Assembly (NCBI GenBank): GCA_003246895.1
Contig: QKCL01000086.1
Coordinates: forward strand, 1-37,690
From: Spirochaetota bacterium
GTDB lineage: Bacteria; Spirochaetota; UBA4802; UBA5550
Length of the DNA: 37,690 bases
Direction: 5' to 3'
Within the stretch, counting starts at the first letter, position 1; every line of letters starts with the position of its first letter. Shown here in pieces: positions 8,276-33,086 of the stretch. The position numbers were made by a program, and so were the translations under genes. Below the pieces are notes generated by a model. It made no database searches and had not been told where the DNA came from. It saw only the letters and a list, made by a program, of their open reading frames with translations.

Positions 8276-9732
8276 ATGATGGATCAGCAGCTGATAAAAA
8301 AGAGATTTGAAGAGATAGGCGAGTTTCCGCAATTTGCAGAGTTTCCAGTGGAATCAGAACAGCTGGATAGGTTTATCTCATATTTGCTGTCGTTGAAAGG
8401 TGAGCAGACAGTACGTATCAATCCTCTTGACTTTGCCCAGCATGCGGATATGGATTCTGCAACAGTGCTGAGCATATTTATCTACGGCTCAAAGTCCGGT
8501 CTTTTCAGCTTTGAATGGAACTTTATCTGCCCTGTCTGCGGAGGTCGTGAACACAGCTATGAAAACCTGAATCAGCTTGAGAAAACCTATTACAGGTGCA
8601 CCCTATGTGACCTCGATGTTGAAGTTGTTGCAGATTCTCATCTTGAGATATCCTTTACACTTAGATCGGATATTTCAGGCTACATGCATGATCCCTTCTT
8701 ATCTCTTGATTCATACTGGGCACACAATTTTTCTCATTCCATTATCTGGCCTGATCCTTTGCGTGAGGCCTTTGACAGTCAGCAGAATCTAAGGTTCTTC
8801 TCCCTGGACCCCGGGAAAAAAATAAGTCTTGCCTTCGGTCAAAACCGTATGAAGAGCTGGCGAATGCTCAGTTTTGACAGCCATGCAATCTGTTCGATTG
8901 ACATGGGAGATCTGAAAAATACAGACCGGGTTGAACAGGTTGGCCTGACCCATGACGCAGAGGGGTTCACTCCCGGGAAAATTGAATTCTCTTCATCTAA
9001 GGGGAAAGTAGATCTCGTAAACAACTCTGATAAAACAGCAGGTTTCATCATCGGCCAGCCTGCCAATGAGCATTTTTTTAATATGCTGAGAGAACACCCT
9101 CCATACTTTACACCATTTGTAACCGGTAAAATGATTCTCAACAATCAGCTTTTCAGGGAACTTTTCCTTGTTGATAATCTGCCCGATGATCTGTCCATGA
9201 AAATTCAGGACATTACCCTGCTTTTCACAGACCTGAAGGGGGCAACGGAACTCTATGACAAAACCGGTGATATTTATGCATACAGGCTTGTCAAAAAGCA
9301 TTTTCGTATTTTACAGAAGATCGTTAATACATATAACGGAGGGATAGTAAAAACCATGGGTGATGCAATAGTGGCGTCATTTAATGATGCCAGGTCAGGA
9401 CTTGACGCTGCAAGTGCCATGGTTAAGGAAATCAATGCCTTTAACAGTACAGCATCGAACATGGATCATTCACTGGGGCTTAAAATCGGGCTTCACCGCG
9501 GAGAGGTAATTGCTGTTAAAGCCAATCAGACTCTGGATTATTTCGACAGACTGTAAATATTGCAGCACGAATTCAGAGTCTTGCAGGCTCAGGTGAAATC
9601 TGGGTTTCCGATCAGATCTTTGAGAGTTCATCAGATCGGGAAAGGGATTTGTCCGGCTATACTCCCGTTGTTTCTAAGCAGGCGCAATTGAAGGGCGTTG
9701 GAGAAAATATAACAGTACACCGTATTTTTTGA
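8276..9732 (+). pseudogene. Class III nucleotide cyclase with N-terminal zinc ribbon (DUF5939-like), frameshifted near its end
   Basis: Residues 1-300 resemble the DUF5939 region found with adenylate cyclases, including a zinc ribbon CPVCGG (85-90) and CTLC (108-111). The catalytic domain begins at ITLLFTDLKGATELY with the first metal Asp. It continues with GGIVKTMGDAIVASF (adenine-specifying Lys and second metal Asp) and GLHRGEVIA. At LDYF the frame shifts and the protein ends with DRL at 9556. In the next frame the family continuation is intact from about 9546 to a stop at 9732: QTVNIAARIQSLAGSGEIWV and so on. One missing G at TTCGACAG (expected TTCGGACAG) explains it. The lost part holds the Asn and Arg of NxxxR, which stabilise the transition state, so the truncated product should be inactive. 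Start: ATG 8276 or 8279; AGAGG fits 8279 better. A sequencing error is possible. Confidence 0.85.
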
Positions 9733-9808: not shown

Positions 9809-10882
9809 TTACTTCAGGTACTCCTTAAAGAATGACTCAAGCTTGTCAAAGGGAATCATATCTGTTCTGTCGTAGAGGTCAATATGTCTTGCACCCGGTA
9901 CGATAACAAGTTCCTTGGGCTCTGAAGCCATTTTATAGGCATCCTCTGTGAAATATCTGGAGTGAGCCTTCTCACCCATGATAAACAGAATCGGTCTTGG
10001 TGAAATGGACTTGATATGAGAAAGAAGCGGAAAGTTCATGAAGTCCATTGTACTTGTAACGGTGAAGTTAGGTACAGTATTTGGATGGTGCCCGCGCTTC
10101 ATTCCGTAGTACTCAAAGAACTCACTTGTGATCGGATCAAGTCCCTTAGGTATACTTGTCTGTGCAGTTTTAGGGAATCCTTGAGGAGCTTTTGGTTTTC
10201 CATTTGCAAAGTCCTTCCATCTCTGGTCGGCAAGCTGGTCGAGAATTTTGTTTCTCTGAACTTCAGTCATTGTGTCTTTCCAGCCGTAGCGAAGAACACG
10301 GCTCATATCGTACATACTGGCAGTTGCCACGGCCTTGATTCGGCGGTCAACCTGTGCTGCTGTTAAGGAAAATGCACCGCTGCCGCATATTCCGATTGCA
10401 CCGATTCTGTTACGGTCCACAAATGGGCGTGTGCCAAGAAAGTCCACACCTGCACTGAAGTCCTCAACAAAGATTCCCGGTGAGGAAACATCCTTCGGAT
10501 CACCACCGCTTTCCCCGTTATAGGATTCATCAAATGCCACTGTAACAAAACCGCGTTCAGCAAGAGTCTGTGCGTAGATGCCGGCTCCCTGTTCCTTAAC
10601 ACCTCCGTAGGGTGTCCCTATAATAATTGCCGGGTACTTTTTGGTCTTGTCCATGTCCTTTGGTGTGTACATGTGTCCGGCAATAGTAATACCGAAACGG
10701 TTTTTATAACGTACTGACTGTACTGTTACCTTATCGCTAAGCTTGAATGTTAAATATGTATCCTTGCTCAGCGGTTTGATTTCAACCTGATTTTCGGTCT
10801 TATCACACCCTGTAACGGCCAGAAGTGCAACAGCTAAAGTTGTAAGTATTTTAATTGAGGCTTTCATGTTGCCTTTCTTCAT
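9809..10882 (-). CDS. Alpha/beta-hydrolase lipoprotein (dienelactone-hydrolase/YcjY-like)
   Basis: This 357-residue protein starts after AAGGAG with a lipoprotein signal ending in the lipobox AVTGC. The body is an alpha/beta hydrolase. The oxyanion region is IIIGTPYGGVKEQGAG, and the nucleophile elbow GICGSG carries Cys rather than Ser, as in dienelactone hydrolases and YcjY-like proteins. The phrase MGEKAHSRYF follows, and the likely catalytic His is in GARHIDLYDR near the C-terminus. Substrate is unknown; small esters or lactones are plausible from the fold. A copy of the 37-bp regulatory element lies 74 bases upstream, shared with the cupin genes and the AraC gene region. This places it in the same probable regulon as the alcohol dehydrogenase that follows on the same strand. 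Confidence 0.85.
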   Translation of the reverse strand: MKKGNMKASIKILTTLAVALLAVTGCDKTENQVEIKPLSKDTYLTFKLSDKVTVQSVRYKNRFGITIAGHMYTPKDMDKTKKYPAIIIGTPYGGVKEQGAGIYAQTLAERGFVTVAFDESYNGESGGDPKDVSSPGIFVEDFSAGVDFLGTRPFVDRNRIGAIGICGSGAFSLTAAQVDRRIKAVATASMYDMSRVLRYGWKDTMTEVQRNKILDQLADQRWKDFANGKPKAPQGFPKTAQTSIPKGLDPITSEFFEYYGMKRGHHPNTVPNFTVTSTMDFMNFPLLSHIKSISPRPILFIMGEKAHSRYFTEDAYKMASEPKELVIVPGARHIDLYDRTDMIPFDKLESFFKEYLK

Positions 10883-13893: not shown

Positions 13894-14602
13894 ATGAGAA
13901 GAGACTATAACAGCCTGCATACAACAGACCCGGAGTTCATGGAACGTCATGAGGCCTTTGCCCTGAAGGAAGTAGTCAATGAACCGGGGGCAGGAACTTG
14001 ATGCTGAAACCCGGTATCTTTCAATCCTTTCAGTTCTCATCGGCTGCGGAGGAGTGGATCTCTATAGGGTGGTTCTTGATGAGGCATTGGAATCGGCTCT
14101 GACTCCTGTCATGGCAAAGGAGATTGTCTATCAGGCCGTGGATTATCTGGGAATGGGAAGAGTATACCCCTTTCTTGCTGCCGCAAATGAAGTTATGTGG
14201 AACAGAAATATTGAGCTTCCCCTTGAGGGGCAGTCCACAACCACAATGGAAAACCGCCTTGAAAAGGGCACTGAAGCACAGGTTGCAATATTCGGTGAAG
14301 GAATGAAGGACTTCTGGAAGGGTGGGCATATTAACCGCTGGTTCGCGGATAACTGTTTTGGAGACTACTATACCAGAACCGGACTTGACCTCAAACAGCG
14401 TGAGCTCATAACATTCTGTTTTCTCGCAGCGCAGGGAGGCTGTGAACCACAGTTAATGAGCCATGTGACCGGAAATATAAATCTGGGCAATGACAGGGAA
14501 CTGCTGATTAAAGTTGTTTCAAACTGCCTGCCCTATATCGGCTACCCCAGAAGTCTCAATGCCATGGGCGTTATTAACAGGGCTTTAGAGCATGAGGCAT
14601 AA
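13894..14602 (+). pseudogene. Carboxymuconolactone decarboxylase-like protein, split by a +1 frameshift in a G-run
   Basis: From ATG 13894 (after AAGGA) the frame reads TTDPEFMERHEAFALKEVVN and EPG, then ends at 14001. The rest (QELDAETRYLSILSVLIG to NRALEHEA, stop 14602) is in another frame. The paralogue at 15020 reads straight through the same place: its DNA has four Gs after CC, while here there are five (13986-13990). So one extra G breaks the gene. An ATG at 13979 could restart translation and yield 207 residues covering nearly the whole CMD region. Unlike AhpD-type members it lacks a CxxC pair. The cause may be real mutation, slippage-based switching or a base-calling error in the homopolymer. 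Product family is clear; reaction unknown. Confidence 0.8.
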
Positions 14603-14626
14603 CTTAAAGTTTTCTAATATAATATT

Positions 14627-14986
14627 ATGAAGGATAAAAAATTGAACATCACTGTTAATGCCAAGGGCAAGGCCATAGTCTTTGAATTGAATGAAAGTAC
14701 AGCCTCAAAGTCTCTCTATGAGCAGCTGCCCATTGAAATAGCTGTGGAGAACTACAGCAATAATGAAAAGATATTTTACCCTGAAGGTAAACTGGATATA
14801 TCAGATACTCCCATGGCAAATGCCCGGAAGGGGACACTGGCCTATTATGCTCCATGGGGTAATGTTGTAATGTTTTATGCCGATTTTGGTTCTGCATCGG
14901 GACTATATGAACTTGGAAAAGCAGTTTCAGGAGAGGGGGGCATCTCATCCCTGTCCGGAACAGTTCAGATAGAAAAGCAGAAGTAA
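14627..14986 (+). CDS. Cyclophilin-like domain protein (cytoplasmic)
   Basis: A 119-residue protein with no signal. It matches the small cyclophilin-like beta-barrel family (cyclophilin_like) by phrases such as SLYEQLPIEIAVENYSNNEK, ARKGTLAYYAPWGNVVMFY and YELGKAVSG. The family is not shown to have isomerase activity and is frequent in operons with flavodoxins, alcohol dehydrogenases and CMD-like proteins. No good ribosome site is visible, so it may depend on translation of the preceding gene, which ends 24 bases upstream. Two exported relatives are encoded at 34150-35100. Confidence 0.85.
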   Translation: MKDKKLNITVNAKGKAIVFELNESTASKSLYEQLPIEIAVENYSNNEKIFYPEGKLDISDTPMANARKGTLAYYAPWGNVVMFYADFGSASGLYELGKAVSGEGGISSLSGTVQIEKQK

Positions 14987-15019
14987 TATATTTATACATG
15001 TGTATGCAGGAGGATGACT

Positions 15020-15808
15020 ATGAACAGGAAAACAGTATTTGTTAAAGCAGCAGCAATGCTGGCTGCCTCTCTCTTTATAATTACGGGGTGTGACAGATCA
15101 ACAAAAGCAGGAGATGCCTATGAGGAGCTCCGTAAAACAGACCCTGAATTCATGCAGCGTCACGAGGCCTTTGCCCTTAATGAAGTTGTAAACGAACCGG
15201 GGCAGAAACTTGATGAAACAACAAGGTACATGACAATACTTGCGAGTCTCATCGGGGTACAGGGGATTGACCAGTACAGGGTGACACTTCATAAAGCACT
15301 TGACGGGGCGCTGACTCCGGTAATGGCAAAGGAGATTGTCTATCAGGCTGTGGATTATCTTGGAGCAGGAAAGGTTCTTCCCTTTCTTTTTGCAACAAAT
15401 GAAGTCATGAAAGAAAAGGGAATAAAGCTTCCCCTTGAAGGACAGTCCACAACTACAATGGAGAACCGCCGTCTAAAGGGAACTGAAGCCCAGATGGCCA
15501 TCTGGGGGACGGCAATGAAGGATTACTGGAAAGGGGGCCACATAAACCGCTGGCTCGCGGCTAACTGTTTCGGAGACTACTATACCAGAAAGGGCCTTGA
15601 CCTGAAACAGCGTGAACTTATCACTTTCTGTTTTCTCTCTGCCCAGGGAGGTGCTGAGCCTCAGTTAAGGGCCCATGTAAAGGGTAATCTTAACCTTGGA
15701 AACAGCAAGGAACTTCTTATTAAGGTTGTGTCACAATCTGTACCATATCTTGGTTATCCGAGAAGTTTAAATGCAATGGCTGTTATAAATGAGGTTGCCG
15801 GTAAATAG
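15020..15808 (+). CDS. Carboxymuconolactone decarboxylase-like lipoprotein
   Basis: The ATG at 15020 is chosen because AGGAGG (15008-15013) abuts an earlier ATG at 15014 but is 6 bases from this one. The 262-residue product has a lipoprotein signal (MNRKTVFVKAAAMLAASLFI, lipobox ITGC). Two CMD-type halves follow: RYMTILASLIGVQGIDQYRVT and RELITFCFLSAQGGAEPQL, joined by the long QSTTTMENRRLKGTEAQ segment. No CxxC pair is present. It is closely similar over its length to the frameshifted CMD gene just upstream, so a tandem duplication gave one cytoplasmic and one envelope copy. Function may be a decarboxylase or isomerase-like reaction; not determinable here. Confidence 0.88.
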   Translation: MNRKTVFVKAAAMLAASLFIITGCDRSTKAGDAYEELRKTDPEFMQRHEAFALNEVVNEPGQKLDETTRYMTILASLIGVQGIDQYRVTLHKALDGALTPVMAKEIVYQAVDYLGAGKVLPFLFATNEVMKEKGIKLPLEGQSTTTMENRRLKGTEAQMAIWGTAMKDYWKGGHINRWLAANCFGDYYTRKGLDLKQRELITFCFLSAQGGAEPQLRAHVKGNLNLGNSKELLIKVVSQSVPYLGYPRSLNAMAVINEVAGK

Positions 15809-16608: not shown

Positions 16609-17244
16609 TCACTCAGTAAAGTTAACCTTCACTTCATCTACATCCCAGAGGTTCTCAATCCTGTCCCTGATCTCCTCTTCAATATTCGGGGCAAACTGGT
16701 GGTTTCCGGGAAGGTCAATTCCGATGGTCACAACCCCTCCATCTACCAGAATTTCCGTCACAAGATTTGTCCTGATGAGGTCCAGTCCCTTGACCGGGTT
16801 CATCACATGTTTCAGTCTTTTCCTTATGACCTCTTCAGTGGTGGGGACTTTCTCCTTGACCAGTCCGTGTTTCTCTTCGTAGTTCTGTATTGCCTCGTGT
16901 AGCCCCTCCACAGCAAGAACCGAGCAGTGCGCCTTTATTGGGGGCAGTCCGCCCAGTTCTTCGGAAGCCTGCTGCCATGTGATATTCTTTGCTTCTTCAA
17001 TGGTTTTGTTTAATGCCAGATCTGTAATTATGGAACCGGTGGCAATGTTCGAAGCGCATCCGTAGGACTGAAACTTCATGTCTGTAATGACGGAGGTTTC
17101 TTTGTCGACCTTAAGGTAAACAGTCACCATGTCTCCGCATGCGGGAGAGCCAACAGTGGCCTTGCCGTCGGGATCATCCATTGTCCCCACATTGTGGGGA
17201 TTCTTGAAGTGAGCGAGAACTGTATCGTTATATGGAAATTTCAT
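16609..17244 (-). CDS. IscU-type Fe-S scaffold fused to a DUF59 (MIP18-like) domain
   Basis: The 211-residue protein has an IscU/NifU N-terminal domain (1-130). Its three cluster-binding Cys are in VGSPACGDMV (C36, with Asp38), FQSYGCASNIA (C63) and IKAHCSVLA (C107); LPPIK matches the chaperone-binding LPPVK motif. After a short linker, residues 135-210 (EEVIRKRLKHVMNPVKGLDL, then IGIDLPGNHQFAPNIEEEI) look like a DUF59/MIP18 Fe-S assembly domain. Standard NifU proteins carry a different C-terminal CxxC domain, so this fusion is less common. It follows the IscS-like gene by 11 bases. The scaffold residues are intact even though the partner desulfurase is not standard. Confidence 0.9.
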   Translation of the reverse strand: MKFPYNDTVLAHFKNPHNVGTMDDPDGKATVGSPACGDMVTVYLKVDKETSVITDMKFQSYGCASNIATGSIITDLALNKTIEEAKNITWQQASEELGGLPPIKAHCSVLAVEGLHEAIQNYEEKHGLVKEKVPTTEEVIRKRLKHVMNPVKGLDLIRTNLVTEILVDGGVVTIGIDLPGNHQFAPNIEEEIRDRIENLWDVDEVKVNFTE

Positions 17245-17255
17245 TTCATTCTCCT

Positions 17256-18425
17256 TTACCCGTCCCGGGGGTGGCCGAGAGGGCTTATTACTCTGAGCTG
17301 TTCCACAACATGGGAAATCTCCTCCGCAGCCCTGACTATCTGGCTTTCGTCATTGAACCTGCTTAAGCTGAACCTGATGGAGCCGTGGGCCCTTTCATGG
17401 TCTCCGCCTATTGCCATTATGACATGGCTGGCCTCCAGTGAACGGCTGAAACATGCGGACCCTGTGCTTACGGCAAATCCCCTCATGTCCATGTGGAGAG
17501 TTATTGATTCTCCCTCGACCCGGTGAAATGTGATGTTCGCGTTTTGGGGGAGGCGCAGTGTCCTGTGTCCGTTCAGTGTAACCTCTGGGACCTTTTCCTC
17601 AACCAGTTCAATGAGCCTGTTTCGAAGCACCATGAGTTTCTCATTCTCTTCGATGGTAACAAGAGAGGCGGCCCTTGCAAAGCCCACGGCACCGGGAATA
17701 TTCTCAATTCCGGGCCTTAGGTCAAATTCCTGAAAGCCTCCGCCGTAGATCTTTGAAAGTACTGTCCCTTTTTTTACAAAGAGACCGCCGATTCCTCTGG
17801 GCCCGTGTATTGTATGGGCGGAGAATGTTATGAGGTCCGCATTGATATCCTTTACATCTATGGGAACCCTCATGAATGAATGTGTGGCGTCTGTGTGGAA
17901 GAGAACCCCTCTTCCCCTGCATATTTCACCAATTGCCCTTATGTCCTGTAGAGTTCCTATCTCCTGGTTCGCATGTTGTATGGACACAAGGACAGTCTCA
18001 TCCCCTATGGCTTCCCTTAACCGGTCAGGATTCACCCTGCCGTATTCATCAACTTCCAGATATGTGACCCCGATTCCATCTCTTTCCAGATCCCTTGCCG
18101 TATGGAGTACCGGGAAGTCTTCAATTCCTGAAACAATGATATGTTTATGATTCTTCCTGCTTGCCTTGACTGTACCGCGCAGGGCAATGTTGCTGGATTC
18201 GGTACTTCCCGAGGTAAATATGATCTCTTCTGGTTCGGCCTTCAGATGTGCTGCAAGGGAAGCTCTTGCCTCATCAAGTATCTCACGTGAGTCTATTCCC
18301 ATGGAATAGCCGAATTGTGAAGTTGCCACGGCGTACTGTTCAAGGAATATTGGCTTCATGGCCTCCAGGACACGTTCATCAAGTCTTGTTACGGCGGAGT
18401 TATCAAGATAACAGTAGCTTTCCAT
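17256..18425 (-). CDS. IscS/NifS-like protein lacking the PLP-binding lysine
   Basis: A 389-residue class V aminotransferase-fold protein of IscS length. The N-terminus (YLDNSAVTRLDERVLEAMKP), FTSGSTESSNIAL and the catalytic-loop Cys in STGSACFSRSLEASHV (C325) are as in cysteine desulfurases. However, the PLP lysine of the SSHKIYGPKG motif is Thr205 (FSAHTIHGPRG). The PLP-stacking His of TEHxAVL is Asp103, the Gln of DATQS is His182, the HANNEIG Asn is Gln154 and the phosphate-contact Thr of RSGT is Ile240. So the cofactor site looks dismantled while the sulfur-carrying Cys remains. IscS of Archaeoglobus fulgidus is a known natural example without the lysine. It may act as a sulfur-transfer or assembly partner rather than a desulfurase. 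AGGAGG precedes ATG by 5 bases, overlapping the DsrE2 stop. Confidence 0.88.
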   Translation of the reverse strand: MESYCYLDNSAVTRLDERVLEAMKPIFLEQYAVATSQFGYSMGIDSREILDEARASLAAHLKAEPEEIIFTSGSTESSNIALRGTVKASRKNHKHIIVSGIEDFPVLHTARDLERDGIGVTYLEVDEYGRVNPDRLREAIGDETVLVSIQHANQEIGTLQDIRAIGEICRGRGVLFHTDATHSFMRVPIDVKDINADLITFSAHTIHGPRGIGGLFVKKGTVLSKIYGGGFQEFDLRPGIENIPGAVGFARAASLVTIEENEKLMVLRNRLIELVEEKVPEVTLNGHRTLRLPQNANITFHRVEGESITLHMDMRGFAVSTGSACFSRSLEASHVIMAIGGDHERAHGSIRFSLSRFNDESQIVRAAEEISHVVEQLRVISPLGHPRDG

Positions 18426-18434
18426 TTCTGCCTC

Positions 18435-18854
18435 CTATATGAAGAGGGTGACGGCTGAATTTCTTGCCTCCTGAACATAGGCGCCCACGGCACCGTATTC
18501 ATCAATGAGTTCCTCCATGAGGTCGGACTTCCTGATGCCCATGATATTCATTGTCATTTCACATGCTATGATTCTGCCGCCAAGTTCCCTGAAGTCCTTT
18601 AAAAGTCTCTGAAGGCTTGCCACCTTTGCTTTTCTGATTTTGGATTTAACCATGAGTTTGCCCAGTCCCAACATGTGCATTCTGGAGAGCTTTCCCTTAT
18701 CAATGCCGTTCTTCTTCAGCCTCTCAAGTCCCCAGAATGTGAAAAAGAGAGAGGCATCCATGCCCATTGAGAGGGAACCTGTTGCTATAATCAGGGCGCT
18801 GTAGATCTTGTCAAAGTCTCCGCTGTGTACTATGATTGTTGTTTTCTCTGTCAA
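18435..18854 (-). CDS. DsrE2-type sulfur carrier (DsrE/DsrF/DrsH-like)
   Basis: I choose a TTG start at 18854. AAGGAGG lies 8 bases upstream and directly after the TusA stop, whereas the ATG at 18893 would overlap tusA by 25 bases. The 139-residue product matches the DsrE2 family: TTIIVHSGDFDKIYSALIIA, DASLFFTFWGLERL, MHMLGLGKLM. The conserved Cys is in GRIIACEMTMNIMGI, presumably the persulfide carrier. Related proteins pass sulfur to or from TusA in sulfur-oxidising and other bacteria. It is packed between tusA and the IscS-like gene, supporting a sulfur relay. Low-molecular peroxiredoxin-like annotation is sometimes given to this family. Confidence 0.88.
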   Translation of the reverse strand: MTEKTTIIVHSGDFDKIYSALIIATGSLSMGMDASLFFTFWGLERLKKNGIDKGKLSRMHMLGLGKLMVKSKIRKAKVASLQRLLKDFRELGGRIIACEMTMNIMGIRKSDLMEELIDEYGAVGAYVQEARNSAVTLFI

Positions 18855-18868
18855 TTGATCCACCTCCT

Positions 18869-19090
18869 TCAGGCCTTTATTCTGATCCTCCATTCTCCGT
18901 TGTTTTCGCTTATTTCAAGCAGTGTGAGATTCATGGCTTCCACGGCCATGGGTATCTCCTTTTTCGATGCCGGGTGTGTGCCGATTATTGTTATTATTTC
19001 ACCGGGAGAGGCCTTTCTTATTGCCTTTCTTGTCTCTACGAGGGGAACCGGGCAGGTTTCACCACGAACATCTATTATCTCTTCATTCAT
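18869..19090 (-). CDS. TusA-family sulfurtransferase
   Basis: The 73-residue protein has the diagnostic DVRGETCPVPLVETRKAI with the active Cys13 in CPxP, then SPGEIITIIGTHPASKKEIP and a short C-terminal strand. TusA proteins carry a persulfide and hand sulfur to tRNA thiolation, molybdopterin or sulfur-oxidation pathways. It is the first gene of the operon TusA, DsrE2, IscS-like, IscU-DUF59. GTGAGG precedes the ATG. In well-known systems TusA takes sulfur from IscS; here the IscS-like partner seems unable to liberate it from cysteine, so sulfur probably enters otherwise. Confidence 0.93.
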   Translation of the reverse strand: MNEEIIDVRGETCPVPLVETRKAIRKASPGEIITIIGTHPASKKEIPMAVEAMNLTLLEISENNGEWRIRIKA

Positions 19091-23063: not shown

Positions 23064-24476
23064 ATGAAGAAAGATATAGAAAAAATATTTAATGATGACG
23101 GTTTTCGTGTAGTTGTCAGCAGTCCGGATTCTGCATCAGAAGTCGATGGAACTCAGGAAATGAACAGTGCCCGGAAAGAGGTCCCGGAGCCGGGCGTAAC
23201 CCAGGAATTGAGTCAACGGGCAAAGCATGATGTTGCAACCATTGTAGAATATCTCAGGTGGCATATGGATCAGATATCACTGAAGGTGATAGGTAGAGAA
23301 GATGTCATAAAACAGGCAATTTTTTCAATTCTGACCGGGGAGCACATGCTTCTTCTGTCACGGACAGGTATGGCAAAATCATTTCTGGCAGGTTATATTT
23401 TTAAAATTTTTGAAGGTGCCAGGGTTTTTTCTTCACAGGCAAGCAAGGATCAGACTCCTGATAATTATTTTGGTCCCTACAATATTGAGGAATTCAAGAA
23501 GGGGCGGATTCATCACAATATCAAAGGGTCGATAATTGAAGCAAATTTTGTTTTTCTTGATGAATTCTTTGATGCCAGCGATGTTGTATTGCGTTCTCTT
23601 TTGTCTGTCCTGAATGAAAGAAAATTTATAAATGGATCAGAGCAAATTGATGTTGCGGTTCATTCCGCTATTGCTACAGCAAATTATATGCGTCTTAATG
23701 AGGTAACCGAAGCTGTTCTGGATCGTTTTACTTACAAGTCAATTCTTCCTGAAACAACAAACCTGTATAACCAGTTGCGTATTGATCATTCATATGCTGA
23801 AACAAAAGGTAAGGTGCATTCTCCGGAGAAAAAGATTTATTTTGATCAGATCTGTTATTTGCACGATATTATCCGTAACAATAATAAGGATGTTGTTGTG
23901 AAAGTTCCTGATATGATTTATTTTATGAAAAATGTCGTGGTGAACCGTTTTGTTTCGGAAATGCGTAAAACAGATTATAACTATTTTGTAAGCCCGCGGA
24001 AGCAGGCCAAGCTGGTTGATTTTCTTCGAGCCAGCGCAATTCTTGATAATCGCTTTGAAGTTACTACGCATGATATTGGAGAGATGTACAATGCTATTTG
24101 TACTCTTAACAGCTATATTTCTGTTCAGACTGTAGATAAATCCGAAGTTGATGTTTTTAAGAATACGTTTCAGAATGTTATGGTGCATTACGATAGAACG
24201 GGTTCTCTTGAACAGGTTGAATTCCTTCTTGACGCAGGGAGAATCCTGCAGCAGGTACGTGACTATCCTGATCAGAAGGACAAAATCCTTGCCAGCCCGA
24301 ATGTTCTTGAAAAGTTATGGGGAGTATTCAAGCGTATCTTCCCGGGAAAGAAAAAAAATGAAGAGCCTCTTACTATTGATTCATTAAAAAATAAAATCCT
24401 TTCTATACAACCATCAATTGAAGAAGTCAGAGAGCTTAAAGATGGAATTTTGCGGGATTTTCGTGATATACATTAG
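23064..24476 (+). CDS. MoxR/RavA-like AAA+ ATPase
   Basis: A 470-residue protein. After a 60-residue polar N-terminus comes an AAA+ module of the MoxR family (about 65-300). Walker A is LLLSRTGMAKSFLAG: GK[ST]-type GMAKS is kept, but the first Gly of GPPGTAKS is Ser99. Walker B FVFLDEFFDAS (D166, E167), sensor-1 region IATANYM and arginine-finger region VLDRF are intact. The phrase LNERKFINGSEQIDV matches RavA-type members. The C-terminal 200 residues have no obvious match and may contact the VWA partner. MoxR/RavA ATPases work with VWA proteins to remodel or assemble other proteins, often under stress. The gene is translationally tight with the kinase-like gene before it and the VWA gene after it. 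Confidence 0.9.
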   Translation: MKKDIEKIFNDDGFRVVVSSPDSASEVDGTQEMNSARKEVPEPGVTQELSQRAKHDVATIVEYLRWHMDQISLKVIGREDVIKQAIFSILTGEHMLLLSRTGMAKSFLAGYIFKIFEGARVFSSQASKDQTPDNYFGPYNIEEFKKGRIHHNIKGSIIEANFVFLDEFFDASDVVLRSLLSVLNERKFINGSEQIDVAVHSAIATANYMRLNEVTEAVLDRFTYKSILPETTNLYNQLRIDHSYAETKGKVHSPEKKIYFDQICYLHDIIRNNNKDVVVKVPDMIYFMKNVVVNRFVSEMRKTDYNYFVSPRKQAKLVDFLRASAILDNRFEVTTHDIGEMYNAICTLNSYISVQTVDKSEVDVFKNTFQNVMVHYDRTGSLEQVEFLLDAGRILQQVRDYPDQKDKILASPNVLEKLWGVFKRIFPGKKKNEEPLTIDSLKNKILSIQPSIEEVRELKDGILRDFRDIH

Positions 24477-24487
24477 GGCCGGTTGTA

Positions 24488-26113
24488 ATGTGTTCCCGTA
24501 AAATTATCCAGGATCCATCATCCAATGTTATGGATTATTGGGGTGATCTGGGGCTTCTTGATACTGTAGCACGGAGCCTCCCCAAAGAATTTCATATAAT
24601 TTTTGAAATCGCACGGACTATTCTTTCTGAGCAGGGGACTGATTCCAATAAAGCCCTGGAAGACCTTCTGAATGATAACTTTTCTGAAGTCCCTGACCGT
24701 GAAATGAATATTGAGATAAACCGTCTTGATAAAGATGCCCCGATCGGTGAGCGTATGGAACTGGATATGTTCCGGAATATTAATGATCTTAAACGGGCAT
24801 TACCCCGGGAACTTGCCCATGATGACGAAATATTTGATGCAAAACTCCGGACCAGGACTCTTATGGTGAGGAGATTTTATGAATCAGAAAAAGACAGTAT
24901 CAAACCAATCTCTACATGCAAAGACAATCCCGGCAGGGACGTAAACCGTTTTGAACAGAAGTGTTATGTGCTGATGGACCGGTCCCGATCAATGGATTCG
25001 CATATGCGTATTTTTTATGCCAAGTGTTTGGTGGCTGAATTTCTCAGAAAAAAAAGAGACAGCAATGCCCGCCTTTTTTACCGTCCCTTTGATACGTACC
25101 CCGGGCAGCTTTTTAAAATTGAAACGAAAAGTGATTTTCACGATCTTATTGAACGGGTGTTGTATACTGTAAGCGGGGGGAGTAGTACAAATCTGCAAAG
25201 TGCAATTTCTCAGGCGGTAAAGGATATCAATTTTGAAAAGGATATGCTGAATACAGAAATCCTTGTGGTCACTGACGGCGTTTGTGCGATTGATGTGGAA
25301 GAAATGCGCAGTGAGTTGAAGGATATCCGCTTAAATGTGCTCAAGATCGGGAAAGACATCCCTGTGCCGGATTATTTTACCATGGAAAAGCTTTTTAAAC
25401 GGTGTAACCTTCCTTTTAATCCGCAGTCTCCCTTATTGTGGAATATTCAGGAGAGCCTGAATGAATATAATGACCCGGTAAAACGGGAGAGTTTTTCTCT
25501 GGAAAAAAAAGGGATACTCCGGGGAGTCCAGAGCAACTCTGATGCAATGTATAAAGATTTGAGGGATATTTCTTATCGTTTTATTGAGATAGATGATCTA
25601 CCCAAAAATCTGGGGATTTCTGTTGATGAGGAGTCGGTCCAGCAGGTTCTTTCTCTTGTTGAACGTTGTGAAAATGATGAACCACTGATGAAAATTTTTT
25701 CTGAAAGGGAAGAGTTTTTCAAAAGAATTAATTTTCTGGCGCAGTATATTGATTTGCTCTTTGCAATGGGATATGAGAATATCCGGCCTCTTGAGACTGC
25801 ACGGGACAGGCTTGAATCCATGAAAAAGAAGATGCTTAAAGAACCAGAACTTCTGGTTCAGCTTGTGGAAAGCGGTTTTTTTGACAATGACAAAGAGCTG
25901 CTTAAACTGGCAAAAAAAGAAGCAAAACAGCTTCTCAAAGATGCGAAGCTGCAAAACCTGTCCCTTCCGCTGAAAGAACTCCGAAATGCGCAGATCATGT
26001 CTGGTGCCGGATTTGGTAAAGGGAGTATTTTCAAAATGCTTTATATTATGTTTTACAGGATATGGATGTTTATTCGTGGTGCTCTGCTGAAATTGGCGGG
26101 CAAAAAAAAATAG
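24488..26113 (+). CDS. VWA-domain protein (ViaA/CoxE-like), partner of MoxR ATPase
   Basis: A 541-residue protein with a VWA domain at about 158-330. The MIDAS is complete: DRSRS (D164, S166, S168) in YVLMDRSRSMDSHM, Thr234 in SGGSSTNLQSAI and Asp263 in VVTDGVCAID. The N-terminal 150 residues are helical and charged, as in ViaA. The C-terminal half (380-500) is helical, and the last 30 residues (SIFKMLYIMFYRIWMFIRG) form a hydrophobic or amphipathic tail with a basic end, possibly a membrane anchor. VWA proteins of this type are metal-dependent adaptors that bring clients to the MoxR ATPase. It starts 11 bases after that gene and ends the operon, followed by a large hairpin. Confidence 0.9.
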   Translation: MCSRKIIQDPSSNVMDYWGDLGLLDTVARSLPKEFHIIFEIARTILSEQGTDSNKALEDLLNDNFSEVPDREMNIEINRLDKDAPIGERMELDMFRNINDLKRALPRELAHDDEIFDAKLRTRTLMVRRFYESEKDSIKPISTCKDNPGRDVNRFEQKCYVLMDRSRSMDSHMRIFYAKCLVAEFLRKKRDSNARLFYRPFDTYPGQLFKIETKSDFHDLIERVLYTVSGGSSTNLQSAISQAVKDINFEKDMLNTEILVVTDGVCAIDVEEMRSELKDIRLNVLKIGKDIPVPDYFTMEKLFKRCNLPFNPQSPLLWNIQESLNEYNDPVKRESFSLEKKGILRGVQSNSDAMYKDLRDISYRFIEIDDLPKNLGISVDEESVQQVLSLVERCENDEPLMKIFSEREEFFKRINFLAQYIDLLFAMGYENIRPLETARDRLESMKKKMLKEPELLVQLVESGFFDNDKELLKLAKKEAKQLLKDAKLQNLSLPLKELRNAQIMSGAGFGKGSIFKMLYIMFYRIWMFIRGALLKLAGKKK

Positions 26114-31724: not shown

Positions 31725-33086
31725 CTACTCAATGGTTATTCTCTGCACAACGGTCTCACCGAAATTTGTAACGGTTCTTCTTGACGCGAAGAATACACTG
31801 CCGCTCACAAACCTTATGTCCTCGCAGAGGGGAAGGTCAATGGGCAGCTTTTTCAGGGCTCCGTCTCTTTTTAATACGTAGAGGCCCGAAGAGCCGCTGC
31901 CGCTTGCGAAGACAACTGTACTGTTGTCCGGTGAGAACCGGGTCCTGATATTTTCAATATTCATTCTTCTGGAAAGGATAATTTTACCTGAGTTCAGACT
32001 TGCGATGGAAATGCTGTTCTTCCCTCCTATTGCCAGATGCCTTTCATCTTCGCTTACTGACAGGGAGTTTACATTGTCAGGCACGGCAATGATGCCCGAT
32101 GGAGACAGTTTTGTTCCGGACACTCCGAAGATCCTTACAGAGGGGTTTCCGCGCGAGCCCGCCCTGATTTCTGTGCCGCAGTAGAGATTGTCTCCTGAGG
32201 AATCAAAGGCCATTGAAGTATAGAGCATCCCCTTTTCAGGATTAAATTGCGCACCGGAAACTGAATTGTCCGTAAGGTCATGGATATAGAGGCCCCTTCC
32301 CGGTGAGTAGAGTGCAAGTCTGTTTCTGCTGCTGAAAGAGAGCAGTCTGCAGTCACCGGCCGTGCTGATTTTCTGTTTAAGCTGTAAGTCAGGGACGGAA
32401 TAGATATAAATCTCTTTACCTGAATGACCGGCCAGTGCCAGTAGATTACCGTCAGTGCTCACTGCAGAGGCCTGAATGTTCATTCCCATATCAGCCTTTT
32501 TGTAGGGCTCCATTGTTTCCCTGTCAAAGAGGACAATTTCCCCTCCGCCGTGTATCATGATTATATATTTCCCGTATCTGCCCGATGCCAGACTGTATTT
32601 CCCTGTTTTATAGGCCTTGTATCCCCGGAGCTGTTTCTGACTTTCATTCATTGAAGGGTATCTGTTAAGCTTCAGTTCTGAGTTTGCATACCTCTTTACA
32701 CTCTCCCCATTCCATGTGAATGCGACTATGGAGTGGTCAGGGCCGTCTGTGCGTACAATCCATGCACGGACCATGTAGCCGCCTTTATTGACAAGGACTT
32801 CGTCATTGGCCTTAAATGCGGCGGAAGTTCCGTTTCTGTCTATTCCTCCGGGTGTCCCGAGTAGTTTACAGAAATTTTCAGTTGTCCACTCTTTGTCTCC
32901 GTCATCATAGTGAATCAGGATTCTATTACCATCCACGGAGGCAACCTTTCCTTTGTAGTATGTTCCGCGGTTCTTCCAGTTGCATGAGACCCTGTCTCCG
33001 GGAGAGAGGGCATATAGTGAAATAACGGCAGTGAAAAACAGTATTGCTGTAAAGAAGGAGGTACAGAGGGTTTTTGATTTTTTCAT
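31725..33086 (-). CDS. Exported Tudor-like plus beta-propeller protein
   Basis: A 453-residue protein with a signal peptide (TLCTSFFTAILFFTAVISLY, cleavage near ALS). Residues 28-80 form a Tudor/Agenet-like barrel (PGDRVSCNWKNRGTYYKGKV, then IHYDDGDKEWTTENF). A second similar unit may lie at 90-145 (ANDEVLVNKGGYMVRAWIV). From about 160 on there are WD40-like propeller blades (SAVSTDGNLLALAGHSGKEI, SMAFDSSGDNLYCGTEI, SLSVSEDERHLAIGGKNSI, FSPDNSTVVFASGSG). Tudor folds in exported bacterial proteins are unusual, and the ligand is unknown. The gene lies between the DUF3737 gene and the SUMF1 gene on the same strand. Confidence 0.78.
   Translation of the reverse strand: MKKSKTLCTSFFTAILFFTAVISLYALSPGDRVSCNWKNRGTYYKGKVASVDGNRILIHYDDGDKEWTTENFCKLLGTPGGIDRNGTSAAFKANDEVLVNKGGYMVRAWIVRTDGPDHSIVAFTWNGESVKRYANSELKLNRYPSMNESQKQLRGYKAYKTGKYSLASGRYGKYIIMIHGGGEIVLFDRETMEPYKKADMGMNIQASAVSTDGNLLALAGHSGKEIYIYSVPDLQLKQKISTAGDCRLLSFSSRNRLALYSPGRGLYIHDLTDNSVSGAQFNPEKGMLYTSMAFDSSGDNLYCGTEIRAGSRGNPSVRIFGVSGTKLSPSGIIAVPDNVNSLSVSEDERHLAIGGKNSISIASLNSGKIILSRRMNIENIRTRFSPDNSTVVFASGSGSSGLYVLKRDGALKKLPIDLPLCEDIRFVSGSVFFASRRTVTNFGETVVQRITIE

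Follow-up and report, generated by a model that had tools for sequence, protein, structure and literature searches.

Cysteine desulfurases of the IscS type cleave cysteine only when pyridoxal phosphate (PLP) is bound through a lysine, and in TusA and proteins of the DsrE type sulfur travels as persulfide. Proteins of these kinds, together with an IscU scaffold for iron–sulfur (Fe-S) clusters, are encoded by a compact operon in a 37,690-nucleotide stretch of DNA from a Spirochaetota bacterium (assembly GCA_003246895.1, contig QKCL01000086.1), hereafter ‘the window’. The order of the genes is TusA, DsrE2, IscS-like protein and IscU-DUF59, and the IscS-like protein has threonine where the lysine should be. 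We refer to the Lys-less IscS-like protein of this operon family as IscS*.

Proteins that resemble the parts of this operon are known. In Escherichia coli, structures of IscS–TusA (3LVJ) and IscS–IscU (3LVL) show the same partners and the same fold, with IscS as the donor that loads TusA. Archaeoglobus fulgidus IscS2–IscU (PDB 4EB5, 4EB7 and 4HVK) is closer in one respect: its IscS fold also lacks the Schiff-base lysine—aspartate is present, instead—while the active-site cysteine and the IscU partner are kept. According to PMC7585200, which cites Marinoni 2012 and Pagnier 2014, this protein is inactive yet provides a cysteine ligand to the cluster on IscU. The same paper describes Methanosarcina acetivorans IscS1 (MA0808), which is without the catalytic lysine and has the motif STGSACFS, and IscU1 (MA0807), a protein of 24.2 kDa; the cluster that holds their genes, iscSU1, includes four others whose function is unknown. 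IscS1 formed inclusion bodies in E. coli and was left uncharacterized, and its authors suggested a role like that of the A. fulgidus protein. Minimal pairs of IscS and IscU, the MIS system (MisS–MisU), occur in archaea and anaerobes, and are described in PMC12192291 and PMC12442378 with a working cysteine desulfurase, MisS. The SMS system (SmsC–SmsB; PMC12192291) assembles clusters from sulfide without a cysteine desulfurase, on an unrelated scaffold of the SufBC type.

The operon differs from each of these. Compared with MIS, the lysine is gone, and TusA, DsrE2 and the DUF59 fusion have been added. Compared with E. coli, IscS* probably cannot generate persulfide, and so sulfur would have to flow in the reverse direction or come from elsewhere. 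The window’s protein shares with the A. fulgidus type the missing lysine, the kept cysteine and the adjoining IscU; A. fulgidus IscS also has Gln150 in common with the Thr-bearing clade of the family, but it has Asp rather than Thr, its stacking His and its Asn are unchanged, Gln is replaced by Ala, and His204 is replaced by Asn. It falls outside the operon family, as a weakly supported sister (78/65). M. acetivorans IscS1 and IscU1 almost certainly belong to the family, as judged from their published features rather than from their own sequences: 24.2 kDa is the size of an IscU-DUF59 fusion, and Methanosarcina sp. KYL-1 has the operon, with Thr205. TusA/DsrE2, the DUF59 fusion, the altered pocket and the wide distribution go unnamed in the IscS1/IscU1 paper, and the module is not described in the accessible parts of the MIS and SMS papers. 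DsrE and TusA are unmentioned in a proteome paper on the use of mineral sulfur by Methanosarcina. A literature search that fell mostly outside subscription papers found no description of a TusA-DsrE2-IscS-IscU operon, of the pocket or of its distribution, and our description of the four-gene module is likely to be new.

The four genes form a tight unit on the minus strand, reading from 19090 to 16609, as the preliminary description of this DNA had placed them and as gene calls and Pfam matches agree. TusA (18869–19090; 73 amino acids; Pfam TusA, 1.3e-22) has Cys13 in a CPVP motif, and its gene overlaps by 25 nucleotides that of the DsrE2-like carrier (18435–18893; 152 amino acids, Cys111; Pfam DrsE_2, 1e-33), whose score lies under the NCBIfam DsrE2 equivalog cut-off. 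Nine nucleotides on is IscS* (17256–18425; 389 amino acids; Pfam Aminotran_5, 4.3e-62), and 11 nucleotides beyond that is IscU with a C-terminal DUF59 domain (16609–17244; 211 amino acids, with an LPPIK motif; Pfam NifU_N, 3.4e-41, and FeS_assembly_P, 1.2e-11). A scan for promoters and terminators gave nothing usable as evidence.

IscS* can be aligned over its full length with IscS/NifS structures and keeps the fold-type I, aminotransferase class V fold, by Pfam and by structural match. It scores below the NCBIfam equivalog cut-offs for NifS (413 bits against 531) and IscS (348 against 643). The best PDB matches of its AlphaFold model (mean per-residue confidence, pLDDT, 82; predicted template-modelling score, pTM, 0.84) are IscS/NFS1 proteins (TM-score 0.86–0.90), among them A. 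fulgidus IscS–IscU and the two E. coli complexes (0.86–0.88). Residues 31–40, 228–240, 324–333 and 341–346 are modelled with low confidence, and these stretches include the cysteine loop and residue 240.

The differences between IscS* and canonical IscS lie mostly in the PLP pocket. We compared residues in an alignment of 84 members of the clade to which the window’s protein belongs (the Thr clade, whose members we call Thr-type), seven members of an early-branching clade and 50 canonical relatives. At the Schiff-base position (Thr205; codon 17811–17813, minus strand, as are those that follow), the Thr clade has Thr in 80, Leu in three, Ser in one and Lys in none, whereas all 50 canonical proteins have Lys. 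The PLP-stacking His is replaced by Asp103 (18117–18119) in 84 of 84, Asn by Gln154 (17964–17966) in 82, with His in the other two, and Gln by His182 (17880–17882) in 84 of 84; the canonical residue is invariant in the 50 relatives in each case. A further change in a pocket strand, M150Q, escaped the preliminary description and occurs in all 84. Ile240 stands at the position of the phosphate-contact Thr in the window’s protein, and variable hydrophobic residues stand there in the family. The cysteine of the mobile loop, in contrast, is kept: Cys325 (17451–17453), the sulfur-carrying or cluster-ligand residue in TGSACFSRSLEASH, is present in all 84 Thr-type proteins, all seven of the early clade and all 50 canonical ones. 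Other sites fixed differently in the Thr clade and the canonical proteins are 33–38, 105, 110, 181 and 246.

These substitutions had been read as a dismantled PLP site. The residues are indeed replaced, as claimed, and Cys325 and the reading frame are intact, but ‘dismantled’ is too strong a word. Residues D103, Q150, Q154, H182 and T205 are 95–100% fixed in the Thr clade, and contacts to the PLP ring and phosphate persist in D179 (84 of 84), H204 (82 of 84) and, mostly, T75 (74 of 84). Since the replacements are nearly invariant and these contacts remain, the pocket appears to have been rebuilt rather than merely let go. Lysine-bound PLP is what IscS needs to cleave cysteine; this, the residue counts and the A. 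fulgidus precedent together make it very likely that IscS* has lost cysteine desulfurase activity. That it is a conserved non-desulfurase, as was proposed, is strongly supported by its residues.

The family to which IscS* belongs has members in methanogens, acetogens, Dehalococcoidia, Syntrophales and Asgard archaea. A scan of a species-level genome collection found 267 relatives, and the best 80, at 61–68% identity, were retrieved. The bacterial ones come from Chloroflexota, Bacillota (Acetobacterium and Dethiosulfatibacter), Desulfobacterota-type metagenome-assembled genomes (MAGs) and WOR-3; the archaeal ones from Methanosarcina, Methanolobus, Methanohalophilus, Methanothrix, Methanofastidiosum, Altiarchaeales, Thermoplasmata and Heimdallarchaeota. 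When 393 genomes from the window’s own phylum were searched, they yielded a handful of more distant relatives (~46–48%) in the same operon, with Leu, Met or Lys at the lysine position. The operon-family proteins are monophyletic (support 100/100), and divide into the Thr clade (100/99) and the early clade (96/89), whose seven members have K, L or M at position 205 and vary at other pocket sites (H/D/A, H/Q and Y/A/I). In the four of these that keep Lys, the Gln and Asn are gone from all and the Asp from one. Parsimony on a larger tree finds three changes between Lys and non-Lys. On the simplest reading of these sequences, the origin of the operon and some of the changes in the pocket preceded the loss of the lysine, which took place on more than one occasion. 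Loss recently in the window’s own lineage was considered and is ruled out by these three changes and by the span of the Thr clade, which covers both domains; the earlier argument that coordinated changes speak against recent accident is borne out by the same residues in bacteria and archaea.

At one early-clade locus (L054, 6391–8527 and 9970–12290), a Lys-keeping operon (Asp103, His154, Ala182 and Asn179) has as neighbors another IscS gene, this one canonical, and a pair of regulators of the Rrf2/IscR type. In an Altiarchaeales genome (WOR_SM1_SCG; locus L134), a second IscS–IscU pair follows directly after the Thr-type operon on the same strand, with its IscU at 9884–10369.

The operon is conserved, too, and the two sequence checks proposed at the outset, for homologues with Thr at the Lys position and for an identical order of genes, both gave positive results. 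All four genes occur together at 79 of 88 loci, 71 in the order of the window and eight rearranged as IscS*-IscU59-TusA-DsrE2; the remaining nine hold parts of the operon, some at the ends of contigs. The working cysteines are kept with little exception: Cys13 of TusA in 83 of 83 aligned relatives, Cys111 of DsrE2 in 81 of 81, and Cys36, Cys63 and Cys107 of IscU in 87, 86 and 83 of 87. With these three cluster cysteines, the Asp of ACGD and a conserved GSPACGDMV, IscU has what a scaffold requires. Beyond the four genes, with large ‘shadow’ open reading frames dropped from the counts, the 88 loci have no conserved wider neighborhood that points to a target pathway. Other neighbors are found in a minority only, and an ABC ATPase cluster that turns up repeatedly is generic in kind and scattered in its occurrence. 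IscR/Rrf2-type regulators adjoin four of the seven early-clade operons, a link to Fe-S metabolism.

On balance, we lean toward the view that the operon is a module for Fe-S cluster assembly that does without a cysteine desulfurase. TusA and DsrE2 would carry sulfane sulfur not derived from cysteine cleaved in the operon’s own complex, perhaps loaded from a sulfide- or polysulfide-derived source in anoxic, sulfidic habitats, and would hand it over as persulfide to Cys325 of IscS*. With its fold, its mobile cysteine loop and, by homology, its docking surfaces intact, but an internal PLP aldimine presumably no longer possible, IscS* would then offer either the persulfide, or Cys325 itself as a cluster ligand in the manner of A. 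fulgidus IscS–IscU, to IscU-DUF59. The cluster would be built there, and the DUF59 domain might help to pass it on. In this scheme we infer the route of the sulfur, its direction, its origin and what the rebuilt pocket is for; the role with the best support for IscS* is to dock with IscU-DUF59 and present to it the sulfur that TusA and DsrE2 bring.

The distribution of other desulfurases bears on this. Five of six operon-bearing Methanofastidiosaceae genomes have no IscS/NifS/SufS homologue besides the Thr-type protein, and no other was found in MAGs of Methanothrix harundinacea and WOR-3. The other class V hits that were classified, in four such genomes (two Methanofastidiosum MAGs, M. harundinacea and WOR-3) are AGXT/PhnW-like aminotransferases, SepCysS, MfnA and GcvPB, and one further weak hit is a class I aminotransferase. 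To that extent the proposal that clusters are assembled here without cysteine has gained ground; the source of the sulfur and the direction of its transfer still derive from knowledge of the protein families.

Several observations pull the other way. The genomes with a sole homologue are drafts reported without completeness, and single absences could be gaps, although gaps are an unlikely explanation when five genomes agree and all of them have the operon. The sole-homologue genomes all encode SufB/SmsB as well, and a SufB-type gene accompanies the operon in eight of 10 genomes checked. Most operon genomes (19 of 24 sampled), and the window’s own genome, have a further NifS/IscS-type gene, canonical in kind, and TusA and DsrE2 could be loaded in trans there; of the five without one, two have a SufS-like gene. 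The PLP contacts D179, H204 and T75 persist, four early-clade members retain the lysine, and TusA and DsrE2 could remove sulfur rather than deliver it.

The alternative that survives best, although we think it improbable, is that IscS* is purely structural. Free sulfide would enter IscU-DUF59 directly, Cys325 would only ligate the nascent cluster, and TusA and DsrE2 would deliver sulfur, or selenium, along a separate route whose place in the operon is a coincidence. The A. fulgidus protein sets the example, the hosts live in anoxic habitats, and methanogens are known to use sulfide. In some Anaerolineae loci, moreover, the IscS*-IscU59 pair precedes TusA-DsrE2, and five loci have TusA with no DsrE2 found nearby. 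Against this, TusA and DsrE2 accompany the pair at 79 of the 88 loci, across both domains, and a physical route for sulfur is suggested by the fact that TusA is a known partner of IscS (3LVJ).

Less probable again is that the rebuilt pocket has chemistry or a ligand of its own: it might hold PLP or pyridoxamine phosphate (PMP) with no Schiff-base lysine, some other ligand with a phosphate group or, through Asp, His and Gln, a metal such as Fe(II). IscS* would then be a new enzyme, or a sensor of iron or ligand. PMP enzymes with a residue other than Lys at the Schiff-base position exist (ColD), and the five fixed pocket substitutions, with D179, H204 and T75 kept, are not random. The phosphate-contact Thr240, however, has given way to variable hydrophobics, some Thr-clade members have Leu at 205, the pocket sites of the early clade vary, and the retention of Cys325 points to the handling of sulfur, instead.

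We give little credence to the idea that IscS* needs a canonical desulfurase acting in trans, with IscS/NifS making the persulfide, TusA and DsrE2 shuttling it, and IscS*-IscU59 acting as a dedicated branch. The further desulfurase genes favor it, as does the window’s genome, which encodes on contig 53 a NifS–NifU pair whose NifS (L029) has all of the standard residues; the five Methanofastidiosaceae genomes and the Methanothrix and WOR-3 MAGs, with no other homologue, do not. Decay or mis-sequencing, which loss of a catalytic lysine in a single genome could resemble, can be set aside almost entirely, since the frame is intact, the same residues recur across phyla and domains at 61–68% identity—by itself a refutation of sequencing error or a pseudogene—and Thr-type proteins are more conserved than canonical IscS/NifS compared between the same two genomes, in 65 of 66 genome pairs (mean 69% versus 57%, a gap that differing canonical subgroups and gene transfer may widen).

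Elsewhere in the window, the genes downstream of the operon run in the opposite orientation: convergent with it is a cyclophilin-like protein flanked by two proteins with a CMD (carboxymuconolactone decarboxylase-like) domain, of which the second begins as a lipoprotein would (13979–15808). Further off are a DUF5939 domain fused to an adenylate/guanylate cyclase domain (8276–9556), a MoxR ATPase (MoxR-vWA-beta-propeller type, PF20030) and, after it, a 541-amino acid protein without a Pfam match (together 23064–26113), and a beta-propeller protein (31725–33086).

No SUFBD_core (SufB/SufD) match is present in the window’s genome, which is 96% complete, and one is present in all 14 control genomes. 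Fe-S assembly in this organism would rest, then, on the NifS–NifU pair and the four-gene operon. The question on which this bears is how sulfur is supplied to Fe-S clusters in anaerobes without cysteine desulfurases, or beside them. Mutants of M. acetivorans that lack iscSU2 have a defect specific to cysteine, and suf mutants show none specific to sulfide (PMC10500019). The operon offers a specific candidate for the route that is missing, whether for sulfide or by relay, and one of its hosts, Methanosarcina, is genetically tractable. It is a serious possibility, one that we hold short of probable, that these genes make up an undescribed, ancient and widespread Fe-S system in which the IscS fold—the sole IscS-type protein in some archaea—serves as a docking and ligand platform for sulfur relay, with a rebuilt ligand-binding pocket, and in which sulfide or polysulfide sulfur arrives by way of TusA and DsrE2. 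Genes of this family should not be annotated as cysteine desulfurases: within one conserved operon, the fold of an enzyme has been reused, repeatedly, without the lysine that held its cofactor.

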